From: Arthrobacter sp. Marseille-P9274
GTDB lineage: Bacteria; Actinomycetota; Actinomycetes; Actinomycetales; Micrococcaceae
Direction: 5' to 3'
DNA: 64,000 nt
Assembly (NCBI RefSeq): GCF_946892675.1
Contig: NZ_CAMPOV010000004.1
Span: 62,001-126,000 of the forward strand
A program made the position numbers and the translations under genes. This document shows, piece after piece, positions 24,163 through 42,568 of this stretch (within the stretch, counting starts at the first letter, position 1; each line of letters begins with the position of its first letter). A model generated the notes under the pieces. That model was not told where the DNA came from. It did no database searches and saw only the letters and a list, made by a program, of their open reading frames with translations.

Positions 24163-25065
24163 ATGGACAACGTCGTCGAGGTGGATGAGAATGACCTGTT
24201 CGGCCTCCTGGAGGTCCTGACCAGCGGCGACTGGCAGCCTTCGCGACACCGGACACGCCTCCCGGTGGCCTACCGCGGCCATTCTGCCGCCGCCCATGAC
24301 CTGAACACCGGGCTGTTCCGGTTGCGCGGGGACTCAAGCGCCGCCGTCGAACCCCATATTCTGCGCAACTTCCGCAAATACGCGCACCGTGACACCTCAC
24401 CCGGCGATTCGGACTGGAACTGGCTCAGCGTGGCCCAGCACCACGGCCTGCCCACCCGCCTGCTGGACTGGTCCCACTCGCCCTACGTCGCCCTGCATTT
24501 CGCGACGCGGCTGCCCGAGCGAAACCAGGAGGCGGGCGCCATCTGGTGCGTGGACTACGCGGCGGTGCACGAGCTGCTGCCCGACGAACTGCGAAGCGTC
24601 GTCGAGCCGTTGGGTGGCGGCCTGTTCACTACCGAGACGCTGTCCCGCGCGGCCTACACCCTCACGGAGTTCGATCGTTTCCGGGACGACGACGGCGAGC
24701 GCATCCCCTTGTTTTTCGAGCCACCTTCGCTGGACGAGCGGATTGTCAACCAGGCGGCTATCTTCTCCACCATGTCCGGCCCCGAAGCCGGGCTCGGCGC
24801 TTGGCTCGCGCGCCATCCGGAGCTGCACCGGAAAGTCATCATTCCGGCGAGGCTCAAGTGGCGCGTCCGGGACCATCTGGACCAAGTGAATGTCACCGAA
24901 CGGGTGCTGTTCCCCGGGCTGGACGGCCTGTCGCTGTGGCTTCGGCGCTACTACAGCAGGCGGGACCAGGACTTGCAGCAACAAAACAACGACGGCGGCG
25001 CCTCGGATTCAGTCCAACGTGTCATGCCCGCGGTCCCCGAGTTACCGGGCCCGCCGGCTCCTTAG
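24163..25065 (+). CDS. FRG domain-containing protein
   Basis: A 300-residue protein with an FRG domain: VAYRGHSAAAHDL (residues 34-46) and WLSVAQHHGLPTRLLDWSHS (87-106), the two hallmarks, followed by PYVALHFAT and the later NQAAIFSTM. FRG proteins are found scattered in genomes, often in accessory or stress contexts; the biochemical activity is not established. RBS AAGGGAG precedes ATG 24163. The last 35 residues (QQQNNDGGASDS onward) look like an unstructured tail and contain the dispersed AACGACGGCGG element. It faces a macro-domain gene 20 bp away. Confidence 0.85.
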   Translation: MDNVVEVDENDLFGLLEVLTSGDWQPSRHRTRLPVAYRGHSAAAHDLNTGLFRLRGDSSAAVEPHILRNFRKYAHRDTSPGDSDWNWLSVAQHHGLPTRLLDWSHSPYVALHFATRLPERNQEAGAIWCVDYAAVHELLPDELRSVVEPLGGGLFTTETLSRAAYTLTEFDRFRDDDGERIPLFFEPPSLDERIVNQAAIFSTMSGPEAGLGAWLARHPELHRKVIIPARLKWRVRDHLDQVNVTERVLFPGLDGLSLWLRRYYSRRDQDLQQQNNDGGASDSVQRVMPAVPELPGPPAP

Positions 25066-25085
25066 CCCCTCCCCCTGCGGGGCAG

Positions 25086-25604
<519 letters not shown>

Positions 25605-25650
25605 GCTCCCCAGTCTGTCACCGCGCTGGGCCGCGGGGTAGGTTGTTGGG

Positions 25651-26355
25651 GTGGAGATCCCCGAGGGGCCGTGGCAATGGCTCTACTATCCGATGACCCT
25701 GGTGCTCGTCATCGCGGACGCGCCCGTGCCGGCGTCGCCCTCGGAAGTCCTGGTGATCGGCGGTGGCACGCTGCTGGCCCACGGCGAGCTCCTCCTTCCG
25801 CTGGTGGTGCTTACCGCCTTCGCGGGCAGCTTCGGCGGCGACGCGCTGCTGTTCCTGCTGTTCCGGGGCGGCCTCAATGCCTGGCTCAACCGCTGGCGCT
25901 GGGGCCGACTGGTTGACCGCGGCGTGACCGCGGCGCTGCAGAAGGCCGGCGAGTCCTCCACCTACGCAGCCATCGTCGCGGCCCGCTTTATTCCGGGAGG
26001 CCGGACCGCGTCGGTGGCGGCCGCCGGGCTGGCCGAGGTGCCGCTGAAGCCGTTCCTGATTTCCTCGGCATCGGGCTCGGCCATCTGGGCTGTGTGGATG
26101 ACCGGGCTGGGGCTCGCGAGCGGACTCGCCACGGACCTGCCGCTGTGGGCCAACGTTGCGCTGGGGACGCTGGTCGGCATACTGGTGGGCATGGTCCTTG
26201 CCGCCGTCATCCGCCTGCGCCGCCGGTCCGCTGCCCTCCGGGCGGTGCCGGCGGGCTGCCGCCGTCCCCACCGACCGCGCCACCGTCCCCGCCGGCCCGG
26301 CCACAGTCCCCGCCGGCCCGGCCACAGTCCCTGCCCCGCCTCCGAGCCGCGGTAG
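25651..26355 (+). CDS. DedA (VTT) family membrane protein
   Basis: A 234-residue integral membrane protein with the DedA motifs FGGDALLFLLFRGG and ARFIPGGRTASV near residues 70-85 and 110-121. DedA proteins contribute to lipid flipping and envelope integrity. The start is GTG at 25651. The last 45 residues are an Arg/Pro/His-rich tail over a 21-bp repeat; about 200 bp follow before the next gene. In the same frame after the stop, a second hydrophobic stretch (RAAVALGLVLCLLAG) is visible, so the annotated end may be disturbed. Confidence 0.82.
   Translation: MEIPEGPWQWLYYPMTLVLVIADAPVPASPSEVLVIGGGTLLAHGELLLPLVVLTAFAGSFGGDALLFLLFRGGLNAWLNRWRWGRLVDRGVTAALQKAGESSTYAAIVAARFIPGGRTASVAAAGLAEVPLKPFLISSASGSAIWAVWMTGLGLASGLATDLPLWANVALGTLVGILVGMVLAAVIRLRRRSAALRAVPAGCRRPHRPRHRPRRPGHSPRRPGHSPCPASEPR
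26285..26326 (+). repeat. 21-bp tandem repeat at the end of the DedA gene
   Basis: Two perfect 21-bp copies (GTCCCCGCCGGCCCGGCCACA) plus a partial third. It encodes Arg/Pro/His in the DedA frame, but the more protein-like linker sequence GPATVPA in the +1-shifted frame. Confidence 0.8.
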
Positions 26356-26554
26356 CCGCTTCCGTCGGTTCCGCTCCCCGGCTCCGTTAGGCCCTACTTC
26401 CGCCGCGCCCGCGGCGTCCTGGCCACGGACAACGTCCTCCGGGCCGCGGTGGCGCTGGGCCTGGTGCTCTGCCTGCTGGCCGGCGCCCGCGGTGCCGGGC
26501 TGCTCGGCCCCTCAACCCGTGCGCGGGGCCGGGCAGCGGCGTAGACTGCCGCGC

Positions 26555-27301
26555 ATGTATACACCGGAGCCTTTTGCCGAGCCCTCCCCGCGCCGGATCC
26601 GGGTTCGCCTAGGCGGGTCCCTGATCGCCGACAGTTCCCGCGCCCTGCTGCTGGTCCAGTACGGCAAGACCGGCCTGCCGACCTATTACCTGCCGCTCGA
26701 GGATGTCCGTCCGGACGCCCTGTCCGGGGAATCGACGGCCGGCGGACAGACCCGCTGGACCGTCACGGCCGGGAACAAGCGCGCCGACGCTGCGGCGTGG
26801 ACCTACCCCGATCCGAGCGGCCCCACGGCGGCGCTGGCTGGCCACGTCACCTTCTCCTGGCGCCAACTGGAGTGGTACGAGGAGGATGAGCGCGTCCTCG
26901 TCCATGCCAGGGATCCGTACAAGCGCGTGGACACCCTGCGCAGCTCGCGCCGCGTCCAGGTCTATGCCGGGGACACGCTGATCGCCGACAGCATCCGGCC
27001 GCTGCTGCTCTTCGAAACCCACCTGCCGACCCGCTACTACCTGCCCTTCGAGGACGTGCGCACTGAGCTGCTCGAAGCCAGCGACACGGTGACCAGCTGC
27101 CCGTACAAGGGCGAGGCCCGCTACTGGTCCATCCGGGCCGGGGACACGTTCGTCCCCGACGCCGCCTGGAGCTATCCGGCGCCCATCCCGGAGAACCCCA
27201 AGATCAAGGACCTGCTGGCCTTCTTCAGCGAACGGACCGACCTCGTGGTGGACGGCGAACGCCTCGAACACCCGGACACCGCCTGGTCACTCCCCCAATA
27301 G
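26555..27301 (+). CDS. Protein with two DUF427 domains
   Basis: A 248-residue cytosolic protein made of two related halves. First half: RIRVRLGGSLIADSSRALLL, YYLPLEDVR; second half: RVQVYAGDTLIADSIRPLLL, YYLPFEDVR, then KGEARYWS and AAWSYPAPIPE. DUF427 domains are small beta-tent folds of unknown function, common in actinobacteria; many proteins have one copy. ATG at 26555 was chosen; the open frame upstream is repeat-derived. Confidence 0.85.
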   Translation: MYTPEPFAEPSPRRIRVRLGGSLIADSSRALLLVQYGKTGLPTYYLPLEDVRPDALSGESTAGGQTRWTVTAGNKRADAAAWTYPDPSGPTAALAGHVTFSWRQLEWYEEDERVLVHARDPYKRVDTLRSSRRVQVYAGDTLIADSIRPLLLFETHLPTRYYLPFEDVRTELLEASDTVTSCPYKGEARYWSIRAGDTFVPDAAWSYPAPIPENPKIKDLLAFFSERTDLVVDGERLEHPDTAWSLPQ

Positions 27302-27351
27302 CGACGGCGGCGCCGGGCTCTTAAGTTCTAGCGGCGGCGTCGCCAACGCCG

Positions 27352-27660
27352 TCAGGCCAGCGGATGCCAGCGGCCGCGGCTGCGGCGCAGCACGGTCAGG
27401 TTCCGGCTGTGCGCGACCTCTTCCACGGCGTCCTGCAGATCTCCGGCAGCCCGGAGCGCCTGCCGGTTCTCGTCGTCGTACGCCCCCGGCTCCACCGTGA
27501 AGCGCACGGTGATCCGCGGGACTCCGCCCACGACATCCAGCTGGTGCCCTTCCACCACATGGGAGGAGCCGACGGCGTCCGTGGCCGCCTCCATCACGCT
27601 GGGCGGGGTGTGGTCCGGACGGAGCCCGGTGATGTCGAGGCGGGCTCGGAAGGACGGCAT
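27352..27660 (-). CDS. Hypothetical protein, 102 aa
   Basis: A small soluble protein with strand/helix-like composition (MPSFRARLDITGLRPDHTPP, RITVRFTVEPGAYDDENRQA, NLTVLRRSRGRWHPLA). No recognised domain. Codon use and GC at third positions match neighbours, and the ATG is well placed. It lies 56 bp downstream of creC on the same strand and may be the last gene of that transcript or independent. Confidence 0.6.
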   Translation of the reverse strand: MPSFRARLDITGLRPDHTPPSVMEAATDAVGSSHVVEGHQLDVVGGVPRITVRFTVEPGAYDDENRQALRAAGDLQDAVEEVAHSRNLTVLRRSRGRWHPLA

Positions 27661-27716
27661 GGGCCTACTGTAGCGAACGCGGGCGGACAGGAAGAGCTGC
27701 GAAGAGCAGCGCCCGG

Positions 27717-29267
27717 CTACTTCCGGTGGATGGACTTGTAGCAGAGGTAGGCATTCAGCCCCTCGATCCCGTATTCGGTGCCGAGGCCCGAATCGTGCCG
27801 GCCGCCGAAGGGTGCCGAGTGGTTCGAGGCGAAGAAGTTGATGCCGACCGAGCCGGTGTCCATCCGGTCCGCGACCGCCAGGGCCGCATCCTGGTCCTGG
27901 CCGAACACGAGCCCGCCGAGTCCGAACTCGGTGTTGTTGGCCAGCGCGACGGCCTCGTCCACGTCGGAGTACTTCAGCACGGAGATCACGGGGCCGAAGA
28001 TCTCTTCTCGGGAGACCCGCATGTCCGGGGTGACGTCGGCGAAGACCGTGGGCTCCACGAAGTAGCCGTGCTCCAGTCCGCCGCCGAGCCGGGCGGCGCG
28101 GCCGCCGGTGGTGGCGCGGGCGCCTTCGGCCAGGCCGGACTCCACGTACTCGAGCACCGTGCGGTACTGCGACGCGGTGGCCGCCGGGCCGAAGACCGTG
28201 GCGGGATCCAGCGGGTCACCCTGCCGGCCGGCCGCGATCGTCGCCGTGACCATGTCGACCACCTCGTCATAGCGTCCGGCGGGGGCCAGGATGCGGGTGG
28301 AGATGTAGCAGGTCTGCCCGGTGTTGCGCATGCAGGAACGGATCAGCACCTGGGACATGGCGTCCAGGTCGGCGTCCGGCAGCACCACGGCGCTGGACTT
28401 GCCGCCGAGCTCCAGCGTGACCGGGCGCAGCAGCTCACCGCAGGCCGCGGCGATCTTCCGGCCCACCGGGGTCGAACCGGTGAACGCCACCTTGTCCACG
28501 CCCGGGTGCTTGACCAGCGCGTCGCCGAGCCTGCCCGACCCGGTGACCAGGTTGACCACGCCGGCGGGCACGCCCGCGGCGGCCACGGCGTCGACAATAA
28601 TCCGGAAGGACAGCGGCGTCGGGGATGCCGGCTTCATCACCACGGTGCAGCCGGCCAGCAGCGCCGGCGCCAGCTTGATCACCATCAGGTTGATCGGGAA
28701 GTTCCACGGCGCAATCAGCGCGCAGACCCCCACCGGATCCCGGCGGACCACGGACTCGCCGCCGCCACGCGGGAAGGGCCGCACGTCCTCGCGCTCAAGG
28801 TAGTCGGCCAGGGAGGCGAAGTACCGGAGGATGCCCGCGGCATTCGCAGCCGCGCCGGAGGATTCGGAGACAGGCTGGCCGTTCTCGCGGGTGTTGGTCA
28901 GCGACAGCTCGGTGGCGCGCTTCTCCACCTCATCGGCGATCCGCAGCAGGTAGGCGGCGCGTTCCGAGGGCGCCAGCCGTGGCCATTCGCCGTCGAACCC
29001 GCGGCGCGCGGCTCCGACGGCGGCGTCGATGTCCTCGGCGGTGCCGTCCGGCACGGAGCCCCAGACCTGGCCGGTCGCGGGGTCGGTGACGTCGTTGCGT
29101 CCGGTGCCCGCCGCCGTCCTCCAGGCGCCGTCGATGAAGACGTCGTCGACGTGGGTGTACGGCAGGGACAGCGCGGCGCGCGCGTCGATCGCCGGGCCGG
29201 AGAACGACGACGGCGCCTGGCCGGGTGCCGGGTTGGCTGCCTGCGGGGCATGCGGGATGGTAGTCAT
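27717..29267 (-). CDS. creC: NAD(P)-dependent aldehyde dehydrogenase (creC position)
   Basis: A 516-residue ALDH-superfamily enzyme. Catalytic Cys320 is in RNTGQTC, Glu286 in TLELGGK, and the cofactor region is APWNFPINL and FTGSTPVGR. By family and place it should oxidise 4-hydroxybenzaldehyde to 4-hydroxybenzoate in the 4-cresol pathway. The ATG at 29267 overlaps the stop of creD as ATGA, so the genes are coupled. Family-based assignment: published step assignments for CreC and CreG should be checked against the literature. Confidence 0.85.
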   Translation of the reverse strand: MTTIPHAPQAANPAPGQAPSSFSGPAIDARAALSLPYTHVDDVFIDGAWRTAAGTGRNDVTDPATGQVWGSVPDGTAEDIDAAVGAARRGFDGEWPRLAPSERAAYLLRIADEVEKRATELSLTNTRENGQPVSESSGAAANAAGILRYFASLADYLEREDVRPFPRGGGESVVRRDPVGVCALIAPWNFPINLMVIKLAPALLAGCTVVMKPASPTPLSFRIIVDAVAAAGVPAGVVNLVTGSGRLGDALVKHPGVDKVAFTGSTPVGRKIAAACGELLRPVTLELGGKSSAVVLPDADLDAMSQVLIRSCMRNTGQTCYISTRILAPAGRYDEVVDMVTATIAAGRQGDPLDPATVFGPAATASQYRTVLEYVESGLAEGARATTGGRAARLGGGLEHGYFVEPTVFADVTPDMRVSREEIFGPVISVLKYSDVDEAVALANNTEFGLGGLVFGQDQDAALAVADRMDTGSVGINFFASNHSAPFGGRHDSGLGTEYGIEGLNAYLCYKSIHRK

Positions 29268-30028
29268 CGGATCACTCCAGTCTTGAGCAGCGCGTTGGAG
29301 CGCGCCAGGTCCGCCGTGCCCATCTGCACCGCGGCATCGGTAATGAGTTCCGGGATGATTTCGGCGGCAAGCCGGTCCGTGTAGACGTCCGGGGTCATCC
29401 CGAACCAGGACGAGGCCAGCGCGATACCGGCGTGGTCGAAGCGCCACAGCCGGTCGGCGTCGCGGACCAGGGCGTCCTCAATCGAGTACGCCACGTGCCG
29501 GGTGTCGTGCCCGTCGATAATCTCGCAGACGCGCTCGATGAACTCCGCCGAGTACCCGAGGCCGGGCAGCACGCGGCGGGCGACCTTGCAGCCTTCGGCC
29601 TCATGCTCGTACCGGATCGCCGCCTTGCGCCAGTCGCCGGTGAAGCCCTCGGAGAGGATCCGGGACTCGTCCACGTGCGCCCAGCCGGTGTCGTGCAGCA
29701 CGATCGTCACGCGCACCAGCTCCGCGTCCGCCTCCGGGTGGGCCCGGCAGAGCCGCTCGGCGTAGGCCAGCGAGATCGGCAGGTGGATGTCGTTGCCGCG
29801 GGCGCGGGTCTCGGACACCACGGTCTTCCAGAGCCGATCGAGGTCCGTCGCGGCCGGGGTCAGCGACGCCGGCGAGGTGTCCACCGGGCCGGTGGCCGGA
29901 ACCGGACGGACCGGATGGGATTCGGCGAACGCCCGGGCGCGGGGGTCCGCCGCGTGGGCGCCGGGGTCCTGCCCGGGCCAGGCGGGCGCGCCGTCGTTGG
30001 TGTGCGTCTGCGTTTCGGGGGTGCTCAT
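29264..30028 (-). CDS. creD: HD-domain phosphohydrolase, CreD-like
   Basis: A 254-residue HD-superfamily protein. The metal-binding motifs are H112-D113 in VLHDTGW, EHEAEG at 141-146 and IDGHD at 171-175. In the C. glutamicum 4-cresol pathway CreD removes the phosphate from phosphorylated intermediates after P450 oxidation. The first 60 residues are low-complexity. It is seven bases downstream of creE and overlaps creC by four. A close paralogue lies at 38080-38766. Confidence 0.82.
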   Translation of the reverse strand: MSTPETQTHTNDGAPAWPGQDPGAHAADPRARAFAESHPVRPVPATGPVDTSPASLTPAATDLDRLWKTVVSETRARGNDIHLPISLAYAERLCRAHPEADAELVRVTIVLHDTGWAHVDESRILSEGFTGDWRKAAIRYEHEAEGCKVARRVLPGLGYSAEFIERVCEIIDGHDTRHVAYSIEDALVRDADRLWRFDHAGIALASSWFGMTPDVYTDRLAAEIIPELITDAAVQMGTADLARSNALLKTGVIR

Positions 30029-30035
30029 CAGTTCC

Positions 30036-31361
30036 TCAGCCGTCCGTGACGATGGTTTTCAGGACCACGGCGGGGTCCGCCGCCGCGTCCGCGGGAATGT
30101 TCTGGCCCTTGGCGAGGGCGTTCTTGACAGCCATGAAGTCGAGCGGCGCGTTCACGCAGTCCGCGGCGATGATCCGGCCGTCCCGGTAGTACAGGACGGA
30201 GAACTTGCCGCGCTCGTTGTCGCGCCGGACCACGGTGCTGTCGTAGCCGAGCGTCAGCCCGGCGATCTGGAGTTTCAGGTCCGCCTGGTTGGACCAGAAC
30301 CACGGGATGCCGGCGTACTCCTCGCTGCGGCCCATCAGCGAGTAGGCGGCGACCTTGGCGTGCTCGATTGCGTTGTTGACGCTTTCGAGCCGAATGCGCT
30401 CGCCCTCGGGCGCGCCGGGCAGCGGGTTCGGGATGTTGGCGACGTCGCCGACGGCCACGGTGGTGCCGTCGGAGGCCACGGCATGCCGGTCCACGACAAT
30501 CCCGTTGTCCACGTCGAGGCCCAGCTGTTCAGCCAGCTCGGTGTTCGGCACCACGCCGATGCCGACCAGCACCAGCTGCGCGGGCACCACGGTGCCATCG
30601 GAAAGTTCGACGCCGGCCACCCGGCTTCCGTCCTCGGCCGGCACCAGGCGGTTCATCCGGGCGTCCAGCCGGATGTCCATCCCGCGTTCGCGGTGCGCGT
30701 TGAGGAAGTATTCGCTGGTCTCTTCGCCGACAGCGCGGCCGATCAGCCGCGGCCCGTACTCGAGCACGGTGACAGCCTTGCCCATCTTGTGCAGGCTGGA
30801 CGCGGCCTCGAGCCCGATGAATCCGCCGCCGATGACCACGGCCTCGCGGACGCCGTCCAGCTGCGCCTTGAGGGCCAGCGCGTCATCCGCATTGCGCAGG
30901 TACACCACTCCGTCCAGCTCCGCGCCGGGCAGGTCCAGCTTCCGGGCGCGGGCGCCGACGGTCAGCGCCAGCCGCTTGAACGGGAACCGCGCGCCGGAGG
31001 CGGCATGCGCCACGCCGGAGCCGTCGGCTTCCCGCTCGATCCGCACGATCCGCTCGCCCTTGACCAGGGCGACGTTGTGCTCGTCCCAGTACTCGTTGGA
31101 CCGGAAGATCAGCGACTCGCTCTCCACCGTGCCCTGCAGGAATTCCTTGGACAGGGCCGGGCGCTGGTAGGGCCGGTGGTCCTCCTCGCCGAGCAGCGTG
31201 ATGTGCTCGTCGAAGCCCAGCGCCCGCAGCGACACCGCCAGCTGCACGCCGGACTGGCTCGCCCCGACGATCAGCAGCCCGGTGCGCACGGCGCCGTCGG
31301 CGACGGTGCCATCCGCAGCTGCGGAGTGTGCCGCCGTCGTGCTTGTCTTGGTGGCATCCAT
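30036..31361 (-). CDS. creE: FAD-dependent ferredoxin reductase, CreE-like
   Basis: A 441-residue putidaredoxin-reductase-type flavoprotein passing electrons from NAD(P)H to the ferredoxin. The FAD motif reads IVGASQSG (residues 31-38, with A-S-Q in place of the usual G-x-G-x), the NAD motif is VVIGGGFIGLEAA (175-187), and VAVGDVANIPNPL marks the second FAD contact. The C-terminal PWFWSNQADLKLQIAG segment is typical of reductases serving P450 or Rieske oxygenases. Only two bases separate it from the ferredoxin gene. Confidence 0.9.
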   Translation of the reverse strand: MDATKTSTTAAHSAAADGTVADGAVRTGLLIVGASQSGVQLAVSLRALGFDEHITLLGEEDHRPYQRPALSKEFLQGTVESESLIFRSNEYWDEHNVALVKGERIVRIEREADGSGVAHAASGARFPFKRLALTVGARARKLDLPGAELDGVVYLRNADDALALKAQLDGVREAVVIGGGFIGLEAASSLHKMGKAVTVLEYGPRLIGRAVGEETSEYFLNAHRERGMDIRLDARMNRLVPAEDGSRVAGVELSDGTVVPAQLVLVGIGVVPNTELAEQLGLDVDNGIVVDRHAVASDGTTVAVGDVANIPNPLPGAPEGERIRLESVNNAIEHAKVAAYSLMGRSEEYAGIPWFWSNQADLKLQIAGLTLGYDSTVVRRDNERGKFSVLYYRDGRIIAADCVNAPLDFMAVKNALAKGQNIPADAAADPAVVLKTIVTDG

Positions 31362-31363
31362 GG

Positions 31364-31684
31364 TCAGACCTGGGCTTCCGGGGTGGTCACGTAAAGGTCC
31401 GTGTCCTCGGCCAGGCGCAGCTGGCAGGACAGGCGCGAGTTGTCCTCGCGGTCAACGACGGTGCCGTAGAGCATCTCGTCCTCCATCTCCTCCATCTCGG
31501 GGAGCTGGTCGAGGCAGTCCTCGCGGACGAAGACGTGGCAGGTGGCGCAGGACAGCGAGCCGCCGCATTCGGCGACGATGCCGGGCACGCCGTTGCGCAC
31601 CGCGGTCTCCATGACCGAGTCGCCGATGTTGCCTTCAATGTCGCGGACGGCGCCTTCAGCGTCGGTGAAATGAACCGTAGGCAT
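31364..31684 (-). CDS. creF: [2Fe-2S] ferredoxin, CreF-like
   Basis: A 106-residue adrenodoxin/putidaredoxin-type ferredoxin. Cluster ligands C40, C46, C49 and C87 are spaced C-x5-C-x2-C-x37-C (AECGGSLSCATC and RLSCQLR). It shuttles electrons from the reductase to the P450, making a class I three-component system. ATG at 31684 has AAGGAGAT upstream. Confidence 0.92.
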   Translation of the reverse strand: MPTVHFTDAEGAVRDIEGNIGDSVMETAVRNGVPGIVAECGGSLSCATCHVFVREDCLDQLPEMEEMEDEMLYGTVVDREDNSRLSCQLRLAEDTDLYVTTPEAQV

Positions 31685-31711
31685 GGGGATCTCCTTCTCG
31701 GTTGTGTAGGT

Positions 31712-32491
31712 CTAGATGAACTGCCGGCCGCCGTCGACCACCAGGGTCTGGCCGGTGATGTAGGAGGAGTCGGGTCCGGCGAGGAACAGCGCGGCGCCGA
31801 CGATGTCTTCGGGCTGGCTGGCCCGCTTCAGGGCGCCGCGGTCCACGCCGTAGTTCTCCGCGTTCTCCATCAGCGAGTAGCTGGCCTCGGTGAGCGTGAA
31901 GCCCGGGGCGATCGCGTTGACGGTGATGCCGCGCCGGCCGAGTTCCTTGGCCAGCACCCGGGTCATCGCGACCACGCCGCCCTTCGAGGCCACGTAGTGC
32001 AGCCACTGCTCCGAGCCGGAGAAGATCGTCGCCGAGGAGAGGTTGATGACGCGGCCGCCCTCGGCCAGGTACTTGCTCGCGGCGCGGGTGACCAGCCACG
32101 GGCCCTTGAGGTTCACGTTCATCACCAGGTCCCACTCGTCCGGGTCGATCTCCTCGAACGGGCTGCGGGTCACGGTGGCGTAGATCGCGGCGTTATTAAG
32201 GACGACGTCGATCCCTCCGTTGCCGAATTCGGCGCACCTTTCGGCGAGGACCCTGGTGGATTCGGCGCTGGTGACGTCGGCCTCGAAGGCTGCCGCCTCA
32301 GCACCCGTCTCGCGGACGAGGCGGGCGGTCTCCTCTGCGCCGGCGAGGTTCACGTCCGCCACCGCCACGCGGTAGCCGCGGCCGGCGAAGCCGAGGGCGA
32401 AGGCCCGGCCGAGTCCGCCGGCGGCGCCGGTGATCAGCACCGTGCGCGCGCTGTGCGCTCCGGGGGCGGTCGGGGTGGTTTCCTGCGTCAT
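31712..32491 (-). CDS. creG: Short-chain dehydrogenase, CreG position
   Basis: A 259-residue classical SDR: cofactor loop TGAAGGLG (21-28), VLNNAA (98-102), catalytic Ser in NLSSATIF, Y166 and K170 in HYVASKGG. By family and position it should oxidise 4-hydroxybenzyl alcohol to the aldehyde in the 4-cresol route. It is separated from creH by 87 bp and from the ferredoxin by 27 bp. Confidence 0.83.
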   Translation of the reverse strand: MTQETTPTAPGAHSARTVLITGAAGGLGRAFALGFAGRGYRVAVADVNLAGAEETARLVRETGAEAAAFEADVTSAESTRVLAERCAEFGNGGIDVVLNNAAIYATVTRSPFEEIDPDEWDLVMNVNLKGPWLVTRAASKYLAEGGRVINLSSATIFSGSEQWLHYVASKGGVVAMTRVLAKELGRRGITVNAIAPGFTLTEASYSLMENAENYGVDRGALKRASQPEDIVGAALFLAGPDSSYITGQTLVVDGGRQFI

Positions 32492-32578
32492 GTCAGATCT
32501 TTCGGTAGGGGCCGGACCGGGGCGATGGGGGTGCCGCCCCGGTCCGGCGGGGAACGCCTGGCCGCTTGGGGGAACGGC

Positions 32579-34453
32579 TCAGACGTGGCTGTGGCTGTGC
32601 GCGCCCGGGCCGGCGATGGCCGGTTCGCCGGCTTCCTCGGCGTCCAGGATCTGGACGGTGCCCTTGGTGCCGTCCACCCGGAGCCGCTGGCCGGTCTTGA
32701 TCGTGGTGGAGCCGGAGCCGGTGCCGGTGACCGCCGGCAGGCCGTACTCGCGGCAGACGATCGCGGCGTGGCTCATCATGCCGCCGATGTCGGTGACCGT
32801 GGCCTTGATCTTGCCGAAGATCGGGCCCCAGCTCGGGGCGGTCACGGTCGCGACCAGGATCTCGCCGGGCTGGACCTCGGAGAGCTGGTCCGAGTCCGTC
32901 ACGACGCGGGCCAGGCCCTCGACCACGCCCGGGGAGGCCGCCATGCCGCGCAGGCCGCCGCCTTCGACCTCCTCGCCGGCACCCAGCCACTGCTGGACCT
33001 GCTCGGTGGTGATGCCCCAGAGCATCCGGGTGAACGGTTCGGTGATGGAGGCCGGCGGGGTGTTCAGCGCCGGCTGCGGGCGGGCCGTCTTGAGCGCGTC
33101 GATGATGCCCCGGCGCCGCTCGATCTCTTCCGGCCAGTAGGTCGGGCCGATCGGCTGCGCGCCGACCCCCCACCCGGTGACCAGGTCGAAGAGCGCGTCG
33201 CGGACCTCGTTGCGGCCCAGATAGAGCAGGTCCTCCGGCTCGTTCCAGAACCCCTCGGCGTGCATCATCCGGGAGAGCTCGCGGATCTTGCGCCAGAACA
33301 CGCCCATGGTCCAGTGCTCGATGTAGAAGTTGTGGTTCTCCACGTACGGGTACGCGGTGGCGGCCAGCTGGCGCTTGGCGTCGAAGAGGGCCTGGGTCTC
33401 GCCCTCGAGCAGGTCGCGGTACTCCTCGACGATGCGGTCCTTCTCGGCGATGAGCTCCTCGGTGGGCCGCATGATCTCCTGGCCCTCGTCGAGCCGGCGG
33501 ATGTAGTCGGCGATGTAGCCGAGCGGGATCTCCTGGTGTTCCTTCCAGTACTTGTCGTGGCCGTAGAAGCCGTTGCCCACCGTGAAGTTGAACCACGGGT
33601 CCTGGGCTTCCTCATACTGGCTGATCCACCGCTCTCCCCCGCCCGAGGCGCGGACCGCGCCCAGGGTCGCTTCGACGTCGTCGGTGTTGGCGAACGCGGA
33701 CTGGATGCCCAGCTCCACGGCCAGCTTGGCCAGCTGCTTGAGCTCGTCGTCCGGGCGGAACAGCTCCATGTCCACGCCCTGGACCATGGTCGCGATCGAC
33801 TGGTCCGGGATGTTCGGGAAGACTTCCTTGCAGAAGTTGAAGAAGTCCAGGTAGGCGATGTAGCCCAGGTTCAGGAACTCGAAGTGGTACTGCCAGTTCT
33901 GGTAGGCCAGCTGAATCAGCCGGTCGTAGTTCTCCAGCAGCACCTCCGAGCCGTCCTTGGCCTTGCCGGTGGTGATGTCCTCCATCGGGACCATGTCGGG
34001 CAGCTTGTTGAAGGACAGCGTCTCCATCTCGTCGATCGTGCCGCGGACCTTGACGTGCCACTGCTTGAGCAGCTCTTCCCAGTTCTGGAAGTAGTGGCCG
34101 ACGCGCTGTTCGAACAGCGGCACGCGCGCGGCGATCTTCTCCTCCGGGACCGGGATCGGCGACATGTACAGGTAGCCCAGGTGGATGCGGAACTCGATCC
34201 CGTTGGCGTTCGGGATCATCAGGTGCCGGGCGTTGTACTGGCCCAGGCACTTGACCGCGAACTCGCCGCCGATCGTCTCGAACGGCTTGAAGACCGTGGG
34301 CCAGTGCTGGCTATCGCAGAACCAGAACTTCGCGTCCTCGGCCTCCTTGAGCTTGTCCTGGAAAACCAGGTAGTACGGGTACAGCTTCTCCCAGCCCTCG
34401 GCGCCGGCGGGAACCGGCAGCTCGGAAGGCTTCGGGAACGACTTCATGGACAT
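32579..34453 (-). CDS. creH: PEP-synthase-like phosphohistidine subunit, CreH-like
   Basis: A 624-residue protein whose last 100 residues are the PEP-utilising mobile domain: TDIGGMMSHAAIV with the phospho-accepting histidine at about 562, then EYGLPAVTG. The first 500 residues form a substrate region distinct from PEP synthase. It has no ATP-grasp domain, which is supplied by the gene upstream. In the 4-cresol pathway CreH and CreI form 4-methylphenyl-phosphate synthase. ATG 34453 is preceded by AAAGGACG; a second ATG lies two codons on. The His-rich tail HSHSH is unusual. Confidence 0.85.
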   Translation of the reverse strand: MSMKSFPKPSELPVPAGAEGWEKLYPYYLVFQDKLKEAEDAKFWFCDSQHWPTVFKPFETIGGEFAVKCLGQYNARHLMIPNANGIEFRIHLGYLYMSPIPVPEEKIAARVPLFEQRVGHYFQNWEELLKQWHVKVRGTIDEMETLSFNKLPDMVPMEDITTGKAKDGSEVLLENYDRLIQLAYQNWQYHFEFLNLGYIAYLDFFNFCKEVFPNIPDQSIATMVQGVDMELFRPDDELKQLAKLAVELGIQSAFANTDDVEATLGAVRASGGGERWISQYEEAQDPWFNFTVGNGFYGHDKYWKEHQEIPLGYIADYIRRLDEGQEIMRPTEELIAEKDRIVEEYRDLLEGETQALFDAKRQLAATAYPYVENHNFYIEHWTMGVFWRKIRELSRMMHAEGFWNEPEDLLYLGRNEVRDALFDLVTGWGVGAQPIGPTYWPEEIERRRGIIDALKTARPQPALNTPPASITEPFTRMLWGITTEQVQQWLGAGEEVEGGGLRGMAASPGVVEGLARVVTDSDQLSEVQPGEILVATVTAPSWGPIFGKIKATVTDIGGMMSHAAIVCREYGLPAVTGTGSGSTTIKTGQRLRVDGTKGTVQILDAEEAGEPAIAGPGAHSHSHV

Positions 34454-34564
34454 GGGCGTCCTTTCGGTGCGGGCTCGGCGTCGGGCCCTGGCTGGCAAAC
34501 TTGCAGTGCAGTGGTGCTGTGGTTCGACGGTGCTGGTCGGTCGGTGCTGCTCACCCGGTGCTGC

Positions 34565-35713
34565 TCAGGCGGTGGTCTTGAGCAGCGAGGCGGTGATGCT
34601 GCCCAGGCTGAAGCCGGTGCCCGCGGCCGGGGTTCCGGATCCGGCGGTTCCGGCGGTTCCAGCGGGGACCGCGCCGAACGCAGCCGCGTAGCCGCCGGTG
34701 GAGGCCTTGGGCGCGGCCGGCTTGGAGGAGTGCACGGTTTCCGGGCGGGACTGCAGCAGCAGCAGGTTCTCGCCGTCGGGCAGGTCCTCGTCCAGCGCCC
34801 ACTCGATGTCCTGCGGGCACTTGTAGTGCTTCTCCGCACGCTTGGCCATCGAGGCAACCGCGAGCAGTTCGTCGTCGCTCAGGCTGCGGCGACCGCGGCG
34901 ATCCTCGTCGACCTCGCGCTCCACCAGGGTGTGGGCGGAGCGGTCCGGGACCAGTTCGGCATGCTTGTCGCCGAGGTGTTCGCTGACGACGGCGAGCGTC
35001 ACCTTGTCTAGCACGATGTTGTCCGGCGTGACCTGCCCGGAGACGACCATCTCGCCGACGCCGTAGGACGAGTCGATGGTGATCTTCGAGCGGTCGCCGT
35101 TGGCCGGGTCGAGGGTCATCGCGACCCCGGACACCTTCGAGTTGACCATCTTCTGGACCACGACGGCCATCGACAGGCCTTCGTTGGGGATCCCGTTCTT
35201 CAGCCGGTAAATGATGGCGCGGGCGGTGAAGAGCGAGGCCCAGCACTGCCGGATGTGCTCCGTGACGGCCTTGGCCCCTTCGAGCCACAGGTAGGTGTCC
35301 TGCTGGCCGGCGAAGGAGGCATCGGGCAGGTCTTCGGCGGTGGCGCTGGAGCGGACCGCCACCGGGACGGCTTCCTCGAACCGGGCCATCAGGGCCTCGT
35401 AGGCGGCCAGGGTCTGGGCCCGCAGGCTCTCCGGCACGGGCTTGGAGCAGATGTCGGCGCGGATGCCGGCCGAGACCTTCTCCATCTCGGCGACGTCTTC
35501 CGGGTCCAGGCCTTCCAAGAGGTCGTGGATCTCCTGCGTGATGCCGGCCTCGGACATGAACTCGTCGAACGCCGCGGTGGTGACGACGAAGCCGGGAGGG
35601 ACCGGCATGCCGGCCGAGGTCATGGTGACCAGGGACGAGCCCTTGCCGCCGAGCGCCTCAAGCGTGGGCTCGATGCCGCCGTCGAAGAACTGGATGTACT
35701 GGTTGCTTTCCAT
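34565..35713 (-). CDS. creI: PEP-synthase-like ATP-grasp subunit, CreI-like
   Basis: A 382-residue ATP-binding half of a PEP-synthase-like enzyme: GGKGSSLVTM and PVPPGFVVTTAAF (residues 22-49), RSSATAEDLPDASFAGQ (121-137), PQDIEWA (300-306) and LLQSRPET (319-326). It ends right after the ATP-grasp fold with a Gly/Ala/Thr-rich tail of about 50 residues, so it has no own phosphohistidine domain. With CreH it would use ATP to phosphorylate a phenol. ATG 35713 lies five bases after the P450 stop; a longer upstream frame is antisense-free but overlaps the P450 and is rejected. Confidence 0.87.
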   Translation of the reverse strand: MESNQYIQFFDGGIEPTLEALGGKGSSLVTMTSAGMPVPPGFVVTTAAFDEFMSEAGITQEIHDLLEGLDPEDVAEMEKVSAGIRADICSKPVPESLRAQTLAAYEALMARFEEAVPVAVRSSATAEDLPDASFAGQQDTYLWLEGAKAVTEHIRQCWASLFTARAIIYRLKNGIPNEGLSMAVVVQKMVNSKVSGVAMTLDPANGDRSKITIDSSYGVGEMVVSGQVTPDNIVLDKVTLAVVSEHLGDKHAELVPDRSAHTLVEREVDEDRRGRRSLSDDELLAVASMAKRAEKHYKCPQDIEWALDEDLPDGENLLLLQSRPETVHSSKPAAPKASTGGYAAAFGAVPAGTAGTAGSGTPAAGTGFSLGSITASLLKTTA

Positions 35714-35718
35714 GGTGC

Positions 35719-36996
35719 TTAGGCCTCCCAAGCCACGGGGACGGATTCGGGAACGCGGAAGGAGAGGTTCTCGCGGAACTCGATCGCTTCCGGGTGGTCC
35801 AGCTTCAGGTTGGGTGCCAGCCGGACGATTTCCTCCAGCGCGATCTTCGCCTGGAGTTTGGCGAGCATGTTGCCGAGGCAGTAGTGGATGCCGTAGCCGA
35901 AGGAGAGATGCTCGCGGGCATTGGGGCGGGAGATGTCGAACTCCTCGCCGCCGGTGAAGCGGGTCTCGTCGCGGTTGGCCGAGCCCATCAGCAGCAGCAG
36001 GCCGGCGCCCTCCGGGATCTTGACTCCGCCGACCTCGGCGTCCTTCAGCGCCTTGCGGCGCCAGCCGACGATGGAACCGGCGTAGCGCAGGACCTCGTCG
36101 ATCGCGGCCGGGATCTTCTTGGGATCCGCCACCAGCTGCTGCCACTGCTCCGGGTGGGCCAGCAGTACGCGCACGGCGTTGGAGATCAGCGTGGTGGTGG
36201 TCTCGTGGCCAGCGAACAGCATGCTGTAGAGGACCGAGGCGATTTCGTGGTCGGTGATCTCGGCGCCGTCCTGCTGGGCCTTCACGAGGTCCGCGGTGAG
36301 GTTGTCGCCGCCCTCCTCGTGGGCCACGCGGACCAGCCGCTGGCATTCCTGCCAGTACTCGACCAGGTTGTGCGCGTGCGGGATCTGCTCCTCGTCGGAC
36401 AGGTCGCCCCAGGTCATCGCTGCGCGCGAGTCGCTCCAGCGCTTGAACTTATCCACCTGCTCCACGTCGGCGCCGATCAGCGTCAGGATCGTGACGGTGG
36501 GGACGTCGTACGCGAGGTCGCGGAAGATGTCGCCGCGGCCCTCCGGGTTGGCCAGCATCCGTTCCAGCTGGTCCACGACGTTCTGCCGGATGAACGGCTC
36601 CAGCACCTTGAACCGGCGCGGGGTGAAGGCCTTCTGGACCACGGAACGGATCCGGGTGTGCTCCGGCGGGCGCCGGGCGGAGAGGCCGGAGTAGGCGGTG
36701 AATCCGCCCTCTTCCATGATCTTCTTGGCATCCGGGCCGCGCTCGCGCACCGGCGCCTGGGCGTTCTCGCTGGAGAAGGTCTCCCAGTCGTCGAAGACAG
36801 CCTTAATGTCGTCGTAGCGCGTGACCACGTAGTAGCCGATGCGCTCGTCGAACATAACCGGCTGCTCTGCCCTGAGTTCGGCGTAGGCCGGGAACGGGTC
36901 CTTCATCTGGAACGGCTGGTAGCCGTGGTGCCCCGCGGGGGCCTCGGCGCCGTGGCCGAACGGGCAACGGGGGGCCGTCTCAGTCGAGGGTGACAT
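35719..36996 (-). CDS. creJ: Cytochrome P450, CreJ-like
   Basis: A 425-residue bacterial class I P450. The I-helix is AGHETT (262-267), the ExxR motif is EVLR (301-304), and the heme loop FGYGIHYCLG (366-375) has the thiolate Cys373. CreJ oxidises the para-methyl group of the phosphorylated cresol. It is the first gene of the operon: AAGGAG lies seven bases before ATG 36996, and a 157-bp intergenic region with an inverted repeat separates it from the IclR regulator. Confidence 0.92.
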   Translation of the reverse strand: MSPSTETAPRCPFGHGAEAPAGHHGYQPFQMKDPFPAYAELRAEQPVMFDERIGYYVVTRYDDIKAVFDDWETFSSENAQAPVRERGPDAKKIMEEGGFTAYSGLSARRPPEHTRIRSVVQKAFTPRRFKVLEPFIRQNVVDQLERMLANPEGRGDIFRDLAYDVPTVTILTLIGADVEQVDKFKRWSDSRAAMTWGDLSDEEQIPHAHNLVEYWQECQRLVRVAHEEGGDNLTADLVKAQQDGAEITDHEIASVLYSMLFAGHETTTTLISNAVRVLLAHPEQWQQLVADPKKIPAAIDEVLRYAGSIVGWRRKALKDAEVGGVKIPEGAGLLLLMGSANRDETRFTGGEEFDISRPNAREHLSFGYGIHYCLGNMLAKLQAKIALEEIVRLAPNLKLDHPEAIEFRENLSFRVPESVPVAWEA

Positions 36997-37067
36997 CTGT
37001 GCTCCTTGGATATCGTCTCCCGCTTCCGGCAGGGGATGCCGTCGGCGGTTCGTTCGCTATCCAGTGT

Positions 37068-37092
37068 TGCGCATATCACCCTGAGATGCGCA
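37068..37092. promoter_or_regulatory. Candidate operator upstream of the cre operon
   Basis: Inverted repeat TGCGCAT (37068-37074) and ATGCGCA (37086-37092), spacer 11 bp, centred about 84 bp upstream of the creJ start and about 60 bp downstream of the regulator's stop on the same strand. IclR proteins bind short palindromes; a link is inferred from position only. Confidence 0.45.
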
Positions 37093-37153
37093 CCACAGCC
37101 TTCCACTGAGTAGAAACCGGATTACCGGGTGGCAGCTTGGCTGTGCGGCGGGT

Positions 37154-37939
37154 TCAGCGCCGGCTCAGGCCCAGCAGCGATTCCAGCGGGATGTGCGCCG
37201 TCGCCCGTTCGATCTGGGCGGACACTCCCCTCAGGACCGGCAGATGCCGGGTCATCGAGGCCGCCTGCGCCGAGGCCAGTACCAGCCCGAGGCCGGCCCC
37301 GATCCTCTTCGTGTGGAACACCGGGACTGCGATCGAGCAGGACCCCAGCCGCACCTCCTCCAGGGTGGTGGCGTAGCCCTGCTCGCGGATCTGCACCAGT
37401 TCCTCGGCCAGCCGGCGTGGATTGGTGTGCGTATGCGCAGTGGCCTGCTCCAGCTCGCGGTGCAGGTACGCATCGCGGACCCACACCTCTTCGTAGGCCA
37501 GGATCACCTTGCCCACCGCTGTCGCGTGCATGGGCAGCCGACCGCCGACCCGGGAGGCACGCGGCACCCGCTTGGTCCCGTAGATGCGCTCGATGTAGAG
37601 CACCTCGTTGCCGGCCCGGACGGCCAGCTGCGAGGTCTCGCCGGTCAGCGAGAAGAGGTCCTGCACGAACGGCCGCGCGGCCTCGCGCAGCTGCCGTCCT
37701 GTGTTCTGTGCCAGTTCCCAGACCCGGATGCCCAGCTGGTACCGGCCAGTGGCGCTGCGGGAGAGGAAGCCCCAGTCGGTGAGTTCGGCGACCAGCCGGT
37801 GCGTCGTGCTCAGCGGCAGCCCGGAGCCCTCGGCAATTTCGGTCAGGCTCAGGGCGCCGCGGGACTTCTCGAACGCCTCCAGAACAGCGAGGACCTTGGA
37901 CGTCACCGTCCTCCCGGGTTCCCGGTTTCCGCCCGCCAC
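37154..37939 (-). CDS. IclR-family transcriptional regulator
   Basis: A 261-residue regulator: N-terminal winged helix (TVTSKVLAVLEAFEKSRGAL, LTEIAEGSGLPLSTTHRLVA) and C-terminal effector domain (MHATAVGKVILAY, GSCSIAVPVF). IclR proteins commonly control aromatic catabolism and sense pathway substrates. It lies just upstream of the P450 in the same orientation, in the place of the cre cluster regulator, so it is the likely controller; whether it is orthologous to C. glutamicum CreR is not known to me. Confidence 0.9.
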   Translation of the reverse strand: MAGGNREPGRTVTSKVLAVLEAFEKSRGALSLTEIAEGSGLPLSTTHRLVAELTDWGFLSRSATGRYQLGIRVWELAQNTGRQLREAARPFVQDLFSLTGETSQLAVRAGNEVLYIERIYGTKRVPRASRVGGRLPMHATAVGKVILAYEEVWVRDAYLHRELEQATAHTHTNPRRLAEELVQIREQGYATTLEEVRLGSCSIAVPVFHTKRIGAGLGLVLASAQAASMTRHLPVLRGVSAQIERATAHIPLESLLGLSRR

Positions 37940-38079
37940 GCAGCCTCCTCTCCGTCGCCGTTTTCGCCGGCACCGACGAGTCTAGCCGCGCCCACAGTGT
38001 CCCGGCGCGGCAAGCGGACGGAACGATTGGTCGCCGGCCGGAGGGCTCCGCGACTCGAAGGCGGAAGACGGCCCGCGGA

Positions 38080-38766
38080 TCAGCTTCCGGCCAGCAGGTC
38101 CTGCCGTTCGGGCCACTGCGTCACGGACTCCAGCGCAGAGAGAGCGCGGGCGATCGTCGCGGCCTCCTCGGTGAACAGGTGCCCGTGCACCCGCTGGCTG
38201 CACAGCCGCAGGGCCTGTCCGCGCTCCAGCCCGAACCACTCCATGACGGTGTCGATGCCGTGCGGGCTCAGCCGCCAGGTTTTGTCCGAATCCTTCACGA
38301 TGGCGTCCTCGATGGACAGCGCCTCTTTGCGCGAGTCATGGCCGTCGATGATCTCCAGGATCTGCGGCACGCGCGCGGCGTCCCAGCCGACCTGCTCGAG
38401 GATCCCCGCGGCCAGCCGGGCGCCTTCCTTCTCGTGCAGCAGCACCAGGTCCGGCCTCCCGCCGCCTGGCGCGATGGCCGCCAGCACTTCCTCCGGCGGC
38501 ACCCGGGACCAGCCGACATCGTGCAGCATCATCGCGGGAAGCACGACGGCGGCATCCGCCTCGGGGTGCGCGTGCAGCAGGGTGCGGGCCAGGCCCAGGG
38601 CGTAGAGCGTGTGCGCGTCGTTGTCCCGGACCGCCAGCAGCGGCGCCGCCAGCTTCCACACCCTCGCCAGCTCGGGCTCCAGCGCGATGACGCCGTCCGG
38701 CTCTTCCTCGATGCCAGCAGACACGTCGCCGCCGAAGTGGTTCGCCGATGGCCTCATCTTCGTCAT
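38080..38766 (-). CDS. Second HD-domain phosphohydrolase, CreD paralogue
   Basis: A 228-residue HD-superfamily protein clearly related to CreD: shared blocks HPEADA, LHDVGW (H82-D83), HEKEGARLA, EIIDGHDSRKEALSIEDA and a WRLSPHGI-type end. It lacks CreD's long low-complexity N-terminus. ATG 38766 (MTKMRPS) has GGTGGGAG upstream. It is transcribed in the same direction as the cre genes, upstream of the regulator. It could serve another phosphorylated phenol or be a spare dephosphorylation step; that is inference. Confidence 0.82.
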   Translation of the reverse strand: MTKMRPSANHFGGDVSAGIEEEPDGVIALEPELARVWKLAAPLLAVRDNDAHTLYALGLARTLLHAHPEADAAVVLPAMMLHDVGWSRVPPEEVLAAIAPGGGRPDLVLLHEKEGARLAAGILEQVGWDAARVPQILEIIDGHDSRKEALSIEDAIVKDSDKTWRLSPHGIDTVMEWFGLERGQALRLCSQRVHGHLFTEEAATIARALSALESVTQWPERQDLLAGS

Positions 38767-38834
38767 GCTCCCACCGTGGCCCTGCAGGGCGCCGCCGCGC
38801 AAGCGCCCTCTTCCGCTGGCCGGAAGGCGGCGGA

Positions 38835-39221
38835 CTACAGGCCATAGGCCGTGGGGTGCCGCGGCTCGTACAGCAGGATGTCCTCCGCCCCGGGCAGCTG
38901 CAGCATCACTCCGACACCGAAGCCCATATCCTCGGGCCCGCAGGTAAAGGCCGCGCCCCGGCCGGCCAGCTCGCCCATGGTCACGGACAGGTCATCGCAC
39001 ATGAGCGCAATCCGGTGCCCGGGCGGGTGCGAATACTCCTCGCCTTCCCACATCCCGACCGTCGGATGCACGCCCAGCTCGCCCGGACCGGTCCGGAAGA
39101 TCAGCCAGCCGGCCCCGGAAGAAGGATCCTCCACCGAGGGCCATTGCAGCACGTCCCTCAGGAAGGTTCGGGTAGCCTCCGCGTCCTCGGAGTAGATCAG
39201 AGCGTGCACTGCCGTGATCAT
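38835..39221 (-). CDS. VOC (glyoxalase/dioxygenase-fold) protein
   Basis: A 128-residue single-chain VOC protein: ITAVHALIYSEDAEATRTFL at the start, LGVHPTVG and HRIALMCDD in the middle, and LLYEPRHP at the end, the usual beta-alpha-beta-beta-beta pairs. Metal ligands cannot be fixed by eye. Eleven bases downstream of the SDR gene at 39233, so the two are co-transcribed. Substrate unknown. Confidence 0.82.
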   Translation of the reverse strand: MITAVHALIYSEDAEATRTFLRDVLQWPSVEDPSSGAGWLIFRTGPGELGVHPTVGMWEGEEYSHPPGHRIALMCDDLSVTMGELAGRGAAFTCGPEDMGFGVGVMLQLPGAEDILLYEPRHPTAYGL

Positions 39222-39232
39222 CCCGGCCTCGC

Positions 39233-40009
39233 CTACTTGGGGGCCATGCGGATGGCGCCGTCCAGCCGGATGGTCTCGCCGTTGAGCATGGCGTTGTCGA
39301 CGATGTGGGCCGCGAGGCTGGCGTACTCCGCAGGCCGGCCGAGCCGGGAGGGGTGCGGGACCTGGTGCCCGAGCGACTCCTGGGCCTCCTGCGGCAGGCC
39401 GGCCATCATCGGCGTTTCGAAGATGCCGGGAGCGATGGTGACCACCCGGATCAGCGAGCGCGCAAATTCGCGGGCGAGCGGCAGGGTCATGGCCGCCACG
39501 CCGCCTTTCGATGCCGCATAGGCGGGCTGGCCGATCTGCCCGTCGAACGCCGCCACGGAGGCGGTGTTGACGATGACGCCGCGCTCGGGGCCACCGAGTC
39601 TGGTGGCGACCGGCTCGGTCTCCGCCATCGCGGCGGCCGCCAGGCGGACCACGTTGAAGGTGCCGATCAGGTTGATCTGCACCACCCGGGCGAAGTCGGC
39701 CAGCGGCAGCACCCCGTTGCGCCCGAGCACCTTCCCGGGCGTCCCCACGCCGGCGCAGTTGACCACCACGCGCAACGGCCCGAGTCCCGCGGCCGCATCG
39801 ACCGCGGCCTGCACGTCCGCTTCACTCGTCACATCCGCGGGCGCGAACACCGCACGCTCGCCGAGTTCCTTCGCGTAAGCCTCGCCAGCGGATTGCGGCA
39901 GGTCCACCAGCACCACGGAGGCACCGCCGTCGTACAGCCGCCGGGCGGTCGCGGCACCTAGGCCCGACGCGCCTCCGGTGATCAGGGCTACGGCTCCGGT
40001 CAGCTCCAA
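39233..40009 (-). CDS. SDR dehydrogenase (3-hydroxyacyl-CoA dehydrogenase type II-like)
   Basis: A 258-residue [11 protein letters not shown] cofactor loop, [16 protein letters not shown], catalytic region [19 protein letters not shown] with Tyr and Lys in YAASKGG, and ending [17 protein letters not shown]. The type II 3-hydroxyacyl-CoA dehydrogenases share NCAG and FDGQIGQ-type sequences. The start is TTG at 40009, chosen because GAGGAGGAATC stands right before it; a longer ATG frame has no ribosome site. It heads the transcript into the VOC gene and possibly the second HD gene. Confidence 0.82.
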
Positions 40010-40188
40010 GATTCCTCCTCGCTCGGCGGTCCCGGCCGTTTCGGACGGCCGCACTGCCAGCATAGTGTGGCCCGTCCCACGATTCCGGCAGGCTCAGGAT
40101 CCGGCCGGAAGCCGGCGCCAGCGAACCGGGCCCCGGACAAGGCCCAATGCCCCTCCGGCGGGCCGCGGCCGGCCGCTAGGGTGGGACC

Positions 40189-41331: not shown

Positions 41332-41395
41332 CGTCATTACGTAACATCCGTGTTGTGTATTGAGTGTGCGGTAGTCCACAATGGCCGGGCAAGCA

Positions 41396-41407
41396 AAGGC
41401 TTGCCTT
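41396..41407 (+). promoter_or_regulatory. Candidate DtxR/IdeR iron box
   Basis: AAGGC-TT-GCCTT (41396-41407), a palindrome resembling the AGGCTNNCCT core of DtxR-family sites, 58 bp upstream of the iron-binding protein start. It fits iron repression of the transporter operon. Confidence 0.55.
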
Positions 41408-41464
41408 ACTTCCGCAGCGGCGCCCGGCCGGGCCCGCGCGGCCCGCATTCCCGAAAGGCTTTCC

Positions 41465-42517: not shown

Positions 42518-42568
42518 GCCGGAGTAGTCTATTTCGGTGAGCACTTCCCTACCGGTAGCCGGGGTCCG

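Follow-up and report, generated by a model that had tools for sequence, protein, structure and literature searches.

We analysed a stretch of 64,000 nucleotides from Arthrobacter sp. Marseille-P9274 (contig NZ_CAMPOV010000004.1, positions 62,001 to 126,000; hereafter the window) and found eight adjoining genes, creJ to creC, that very probably form a cre cluster for the catabolism of 4-cresol, and probably of other alkylphenols, in an Arthrobacter-group bacterium. Judging by its genes, this soil bacterium should use cresol after tagging it with phosphate. The evidence consists of the observed gene content and order, the identity of the proteins to those of Corynebacterium glutamicum, the catalytic motifs and the conservation of the cluster among related genomes.

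Gene content, motifs and predicted pathway

Eight intact and tightly packed open frames run on the minus strand from 36996 (creJ) down to 27717 (creC), in agreement with the earlier note on this DNA, made from the letters alone, which had described eight compact minus-strand genes from a cytochrome P450 to an aldehyde dehydrogenase. All eight proteins score over the Pfam cut-offs, namely for P450 (CreJ), PPDK_N, an ATP-grasp domain (CreI), the mobile domain of phosphoenolpyruvate (PEP) utilizers (CreH), short-chain dehydrogenase/reductase (SDR; CreG), 2Fe-2S ferredoxin (CreF), FAD/NAD ferredoxin reductase with Reductase_C (CreE), HD (CreD) and Aldedh (CreC). The guanine-plus-cytosine (GC) content by codon position backs all frames of the cluster except creI, which this simple filter did not list; we nevertheless count the creI frame as supported because of its 377-bit PPDK_N match.

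Motif inspection found RSSATAED..FAGQ and QSRPE intact in CreI, the heme-Cys motif FGYGIHYCLG and AGHETTT in CreJ, YVASK in CreG, LHDTGW, IIDGHD and RDAD in CreD, and LELGGK and GQTC in CreC, while the cysteines of CreF are spaced C-x5-C-x2-C-x37-C; for these six proteins the motifs are read in their usual meanings. The motif TDIGGMMSH of CreH, at residue 554, is likewise intact and corresponds to the phospho-His signature that PMC12167813 gives for CreH, T/SxxGGxxxH, in which Met and Ser precede the His. The statement of the earlier note that all catalytic residues checked are intact agrees with this inspection.

The C. glutamicum reference was the genome G756, chosen among 242 Corynebacterium genomes with PDB chain 5gwe, which we take to be CreJ, as the query; G756 matches this chain at 100% over residues 4-404 and was hence taken for C. 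glutamicum. Its cre neighbourhood holds the same eight genes in an order identical to that of the window, and the single-direction order J-I-H-G-F-E-D-C equals not only this DNA but also the C. glutamicum list from cg0637 (creC) to cg0645 (creJ) in PMC7764795; orientation and catalytic motifs are shared as well. The identical residues amount to 314/404 for CreJ (77.7%), 245/357 for CreI (68.6%), 482/621 for CreH (77.6%), 183/251 for CreG, 75/106 for CreF, 305/418 for CreE, 161/245 for CreD (65.7%) and 352/492 for CreC, a range of 66-78% in which CreI and CreD are the most diverged. The match of set and order to creJ-I-H-G-F-E-D-C proposed by the earlier note was thus borne out for 8/8 genes by the protein alignments that it had suggested as a check. 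CreJ, which is CYP288A2 in C. glutamicum (PMC9357085), scores 731 bits against PDB chains 5xjn/5gwe and 257 bits against the next P450.

Substrate, enzyme activities, growth and regulation are assigned by homology, and the step roles are those that the primary C. glutamicum cre study (Du 2016) is said to have established. CreI would present ATP to the His on the swivel domain of CreH, whose phospho-His would then phosphorylate the phenolic hydroxyl to yield 4-methylphenyl phosphate; CreJ, with electrons supplied via CreE and CreF, would oxidise the methyl group while the phosphate is in place, CreD would remove the phosphate, and CreG and CreC would complete the oxidation to 4-hydroxybenzoate. 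The kinase steps are modelled on CreHI and HpeHI, in which ATP presented by the ATP-grasp half serves to phosphorylate the His of the H half, from where the phosphate moves on to the phenol (PMC12167813), and the roles of the creC-creJ products are those listed for C. glutamicum in PMC7764795. The 4-hydroxybenzoate would be degraded further by a PobA-like hydroxylase and a protocatechuate branch encoded elsewhere in the genome, where a PobA-like gene was found beside pcaH (350.9 bits, over the cut-off) and a pcaG-like gene. A point that weighs against this last part of the route is that the PobA-like match, at 415 bits, falls under the curated family cut-off of 538.7.

The presumed substrate-recognition stretches of CreJ, in the F-G, B-C and other regions, are nearly unchanged relative to C. 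glutamicum: 35/35 residues are identical in the F-G region, 14/15, 9/10 and 8/8 in further stretches and 36/43 in the B-C stretch. This conservation argues against the unlikely case of a true cre cluster with another phenol, such as 3-cresol, 4-ethylphenol or lignin-derived alkylphenols, as its main natural substrate in place of 4-cresol, a case favoured by the larger divergence of CreI and CreD and by the range of p- and m-alkylphenols that the C. glutamicum system oxidises according to PMC9549646.

Table 1. Positions of the cre genes and upstream features in the window, with domain evidence and predicted roles
Feature	Coordinates	Strand	Description
creJ	35719-36996	-	class I cytochrome P450, CYP288A2-like; predicted role, methyl oxidation of 4-methylphenyl phosphate
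creI	34565-35713	-	ATP-grasp half of two-part dikinase; PPDK_N 377 bits
creH	32579-34453	-	substrate-binding and swivel (phospho-His) half of dikinase; NF006150 1282.8 bits, cut-off 650
creG	31712-32491	-	SDR, predicted 4-hydroxybenzyl alcohol dehydrogenase
creF	31364-31684	-	2Fe-2S ferredoxin of the P450 system
creE	30036-31361	-	ferredoxin reductase of the P450 system
creD	29264-30028	-	HD-domain phosphohydrolase; HD motif kept
creC	27717-29267	-	aldehyde dehydrogenase, predicted for 4-hydroxybenzaldehyde
R	37154-37939	-	IclR-family regulator; IclR_C 123.9 bits and HTH_IclR
palindrome	37101-37115		candidate operator, 119-105 bases ahead of the start of creJ
HD2	38080-38802	-	second HD-domain phosphohydrolase gene, adjoining R; likely ATG start 38763

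The kinase pair and related phosphotransferases

Two-part dikinases that act on phenols also occur in pathways other than cre. CreH-like proteins, searched for across the host's family (295 genomes, E up to 1e-100), fell into two bands, one of at least 67% identity in 49/295 genomes, the host included, and one of 44-46% identity in 8/295, seven of these eight genomes also holding a first-band copy. The second-type kinases, which are HpeH/HpeI-like, share about 45% of their residues with the window protein for H and about 40% for I. Five of the second-band loci were fetched and three of those were domain-scanned. None of the five gave matches to CreJ, CreE, CreF or CreC at E up to 1e-5, and in two the fetched DNA ends in a D-like fragment, which in L147 matches CreD with 62% identity across 58 residues. 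Biotin carboxylase and carboxyltransferase genes lie near the second-type kinase at 3/3 scanned loci (L144, L145 and L147), with a biotin carrier at two, an arrangement that PMC9618137 describes for Hpe.

No biotin-dependent carboxylase domain was detected in the 18 genes scanned among the 19 called within 24163-44152 of the window (all but that at 41381-42517), and the cluster has a P450 in place of the Hpe carboxylase. We therefore regard the window cluster as cre and not as hpe, because the five second-band loci fetched gave no match to CreJ, CreE, CreF or CreC and the three scanned have carboxylases near the kinase. That the pair is nonetheless Hpe-type, and that the cluster serves 4-hydroxyacetophenone or acetovanillone instead of alkylphenols, appears highly improbable. 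HpeHI is indeed a homologous dikinase whose rate on cresol reaches nearly a quarter of that on 4-hydroxyacetophenone (PMC12167813), but the identity of only 44-46% of the second H band and the presence of carboxylase genes at the three second-type loci scanned led us to reject this identity for the window pair. Hpe-like clusters, combining a second-type kinase with a biotin-dependent carboxylase, also occur in the host's family.

The comparison extends to characterized systems. HpeHI of Rhodococcus rhodochrous GD02 is likewise a two-part dikinase that phosphorylates the phenol hydroxyl via a conserved His (PMC12167813), but its pathway proceeds from the kinase step to carboxylation, with an HpeCBA biotin-dependent carboxylase (PMC9618137), whereas P450 oxidation is predicted for the window. 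In HpeH, a Cys precedes the His, where the window CreH has a Ser; likeness to HpeH was judged via the second-type proteins of the family. PpsAB of Thauera aromatica, likened here by its published description, shares with the window the two-part kinase plan and the Ser before the catalytic His, (PMC12167813) but belongs to an anaerobic phenol pathway. Rifampin phosphotransferase has the same domains, with homologous ATP-grasp and swivel parts, but is a single protein acting on an antibiotic, and the window proteins score far under its family cut-offs. Identity as PEP synthase or rifampin phosphotransferase was ruled out, the matches being to partial domains and far under cut-off. According to the earlier note, low similarity of CreH and CreI to the Corynebacterium proteins, or a better match to another phosphotransferase family, would have spoken against its reading; when the comparison was run neither was seen, the identities to C. 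glutamicum being high (77.6% for CreH and 68.6% for CreI) and the second-type kinases of the family far more distant.

The PEP-utiliser mobile domain has seven matches in the host genome, CreH included, one of which falls within a frame of 858 amino acids some 1 kb beyond the left end of the window (G000:C4:60891-61103).

Distribution of the cluster

With CreJ as the query, the genome collection yielded 121 relatives, and the 80 best of them served as loci. All eight genes stand in order on one strand in 76 of these 80, the remaining four (L032, L041, L060 and L093) being cut by contig ends; this proportion measures linkage and not frequency, because the loci were selected by CreJ. The genera represented include Corynebacterium, Arthrobacter, Pseudarthrobacter, Paeniglutamicibacter, Glutamicibacter, Brevibacterium, Microbacterium, Leucobacter, Rhodococcus, Nocardia, Streptomyces and Nocardioides, and the nearest named relative among the loci is Arthrobacter mangrovi (L037), with 93-98% identity over the eight proteins.

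As for frequency, the first-band CreH proteins described above, which are of cre type, mark 49 of the 295 sampled family genomes as cre-positive, and CreJ is present in 13/242 Corynebacterium genomes. In a phylum-wide draw of 396 genomes, with four or fewer candidates scored in most of them, CreJ was found at E up to 1e-150 only in the host genome; since the draw gave 1/396, the trait is concentrated in some groups. With 76 of 80 loci complete and 49 of 295 family genomes cre-positive, the cluster is, as far as sequence comparison goes, a further instance of the known cre system in an Arthrobacter-group genome. The earlier note was thus right to see an Arthrobacter-group version outside Corynebacterium, but the rarity that it implied did not hold: its frequency in the host's family and its spread over many other actinobacterial genera rule out a rare outlier.

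The chromosome of Arthrobacter sp. C2 carries two complete eight-gene cre clusters (L042 and L054), with CreJ proteins 74% and 77% identical to that of the window. The cre cluster of G756 adjoins genes (L141, 250-2512) that resemble a ribosomal protein operon, presumably spc. Elsewhere in the window, a further P450 (61452-62603), 33% identical to CreJ, lies near the right edge, next to a frame resembling another ferredoxin reductase (62552-63934). An FRG-domain gene on the plus strand stands beside a Macro-domain gene on the minus strand at 24163-25604, a pair that was seen in none of the 82 other cre stretches used for comparison.

Probable regulator, upstream palindrome and second HD gene

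The feature list of the earlier note was correct for the eight genes but overlooked what lies upstream of them, namely an IclR-family regulator gene (R), a palindrome and a second HD-domain phosphohydrolase gene (HD2). We tentatively consider it possible that many actinobacterial cre systems outside Corynebacterium exceed the described pathway, with HD2 acting on another substrate or as a safety valve and, paired with it, an IclR regulator acting on the palindrome.

R stands directly upstream of creJ, on the same strand, in 68/80 loci. The sequence upstream of creJ reads N in G756, and its close relative G903 carries an R that is 59% identical to that of the window. The window palindrome reads TTCTACTCAGTGGAA on the minus strand and is the sole such site in the window. 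Its consensus, TTCCACTNAGTGGAA, was found within 3 mismatches in 70/81 regions upstream of creJ (the window, 79 loci and one more Corynebacterium) versus 4/1620 base-shuffled regions. The palindrome recurs in many genera at a distance from the start that varies from about 65 to 200 bases, which argues that it is under constraint. R most likely controls the operon through this palindrome.

Several observations count against such control. In 12/80 loci the place directly upstream of creJ is not taken by R, six having it elsewhere or as a weak homologue and six yielding none (three of the latter with less than 300 bases of upstream DNA), so R may not be essential. The palindrome is absent at 3 mismatches from 11/81 regions, which belong mostly to Streptomyces, Nocardioides, Nocardia and other distant genera and several of which show a diverged inverted repeat (TTCCGTCCAACGGAA and similar). 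The consensus was chosen among words that recur in the very sequences later scored, many of them related, so the shuffles overstate the contrast. A promoter scan detected no sigma-70-like promoter near the palindrome. Genome-wide, a second site at one mismatch (C2:254638) falls inside long overlapping reading frames, one of which we take to resemble an enoyl-CoA hydratase, and a control pattern gave 2 matches per strand against 4 for the palindrome itself, or half as many; for both reasons we claim no wider regulon.

HD2 keeps the HD metal motif and aligns with CreD across 163 residues at 37% identity, and the two proteins form separate clades with 100/100 support (24 HD2 and 28 CreD sequences in an unrooted tree, the bootstrap being not quite settled). 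HD2 lies within the fetched stretch of 42/80 cre loci and adjoins R in 32 of them. In the host's family, it is present in 39/49 cre-positive versus 4/246 cre-negative genomes (Fisher p of about 1e-34, uncorrected for kinship). It was not found in any of the 13 cre-bearing Corynebacterium genomes, and thus not in G756, unlike the window, where it lies near the cluster; the only match to the HD2 query in these genomes has 33-37% identity and was taken for CreD. Fold searches with models of HD2 and CreD (mean predicted local distance difference test scores of 95.7 and 90.0, respectively) stayed without a match at the E threshold of 0.001. Among the weaker matches the best are general HD-superfamily proteins, and we therefore draw no function for HD2 from them. 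On the tentative reading given above, HD2 would hydrolyse a phosphorylated intermediate other than that of CreD, for instance the acid or a product derived from another alkylphenol, or would alternatively serve as a safety valve by freeing phosphate from aryl phosphates that have stalled.

It could also be that HD2 and R form a unit of their own, with a separate role, that only happens to lie near the cluster, R not being the cre regulator, which we regard as rather doubtful though worth weighing. The HD2-R pair stands apart from creJ in some genomes (L057 and L064), about 55 kb separate creH from HD2 and an R-like gene in G104, ten of the 49 cre-positive genomes are without HD2 while four of the 246 cre-negative ones have it, and neither HD2 nor R is preceded by a palindrome site within the window. 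Set against this independence are the presence of HD2 in 39 of the 49 cre-positive family genomes and the position of R beside creJ in 68 of 80 loci, including Corynebacterium genomes that have no HD2. Searches of an open-access library, which did not extend to the primary cre papers and whose hits were mostly judged by their listing, showed no paper on HD2 or the palindrome, and the main texts of PMC13101518 and PMC6710988 contained none of the cre terms sought.

The HD2 gene and the palindrome are modest, testable additions to the described cre pathway. Judged by its genes, the phosphorylation-first route for cresol, described in Corynebacterium, is frequent in the host's family, whose genomes put many natural variants of CreH, CreI and CreJ on offer for the bioconversion of lignin and cresol.

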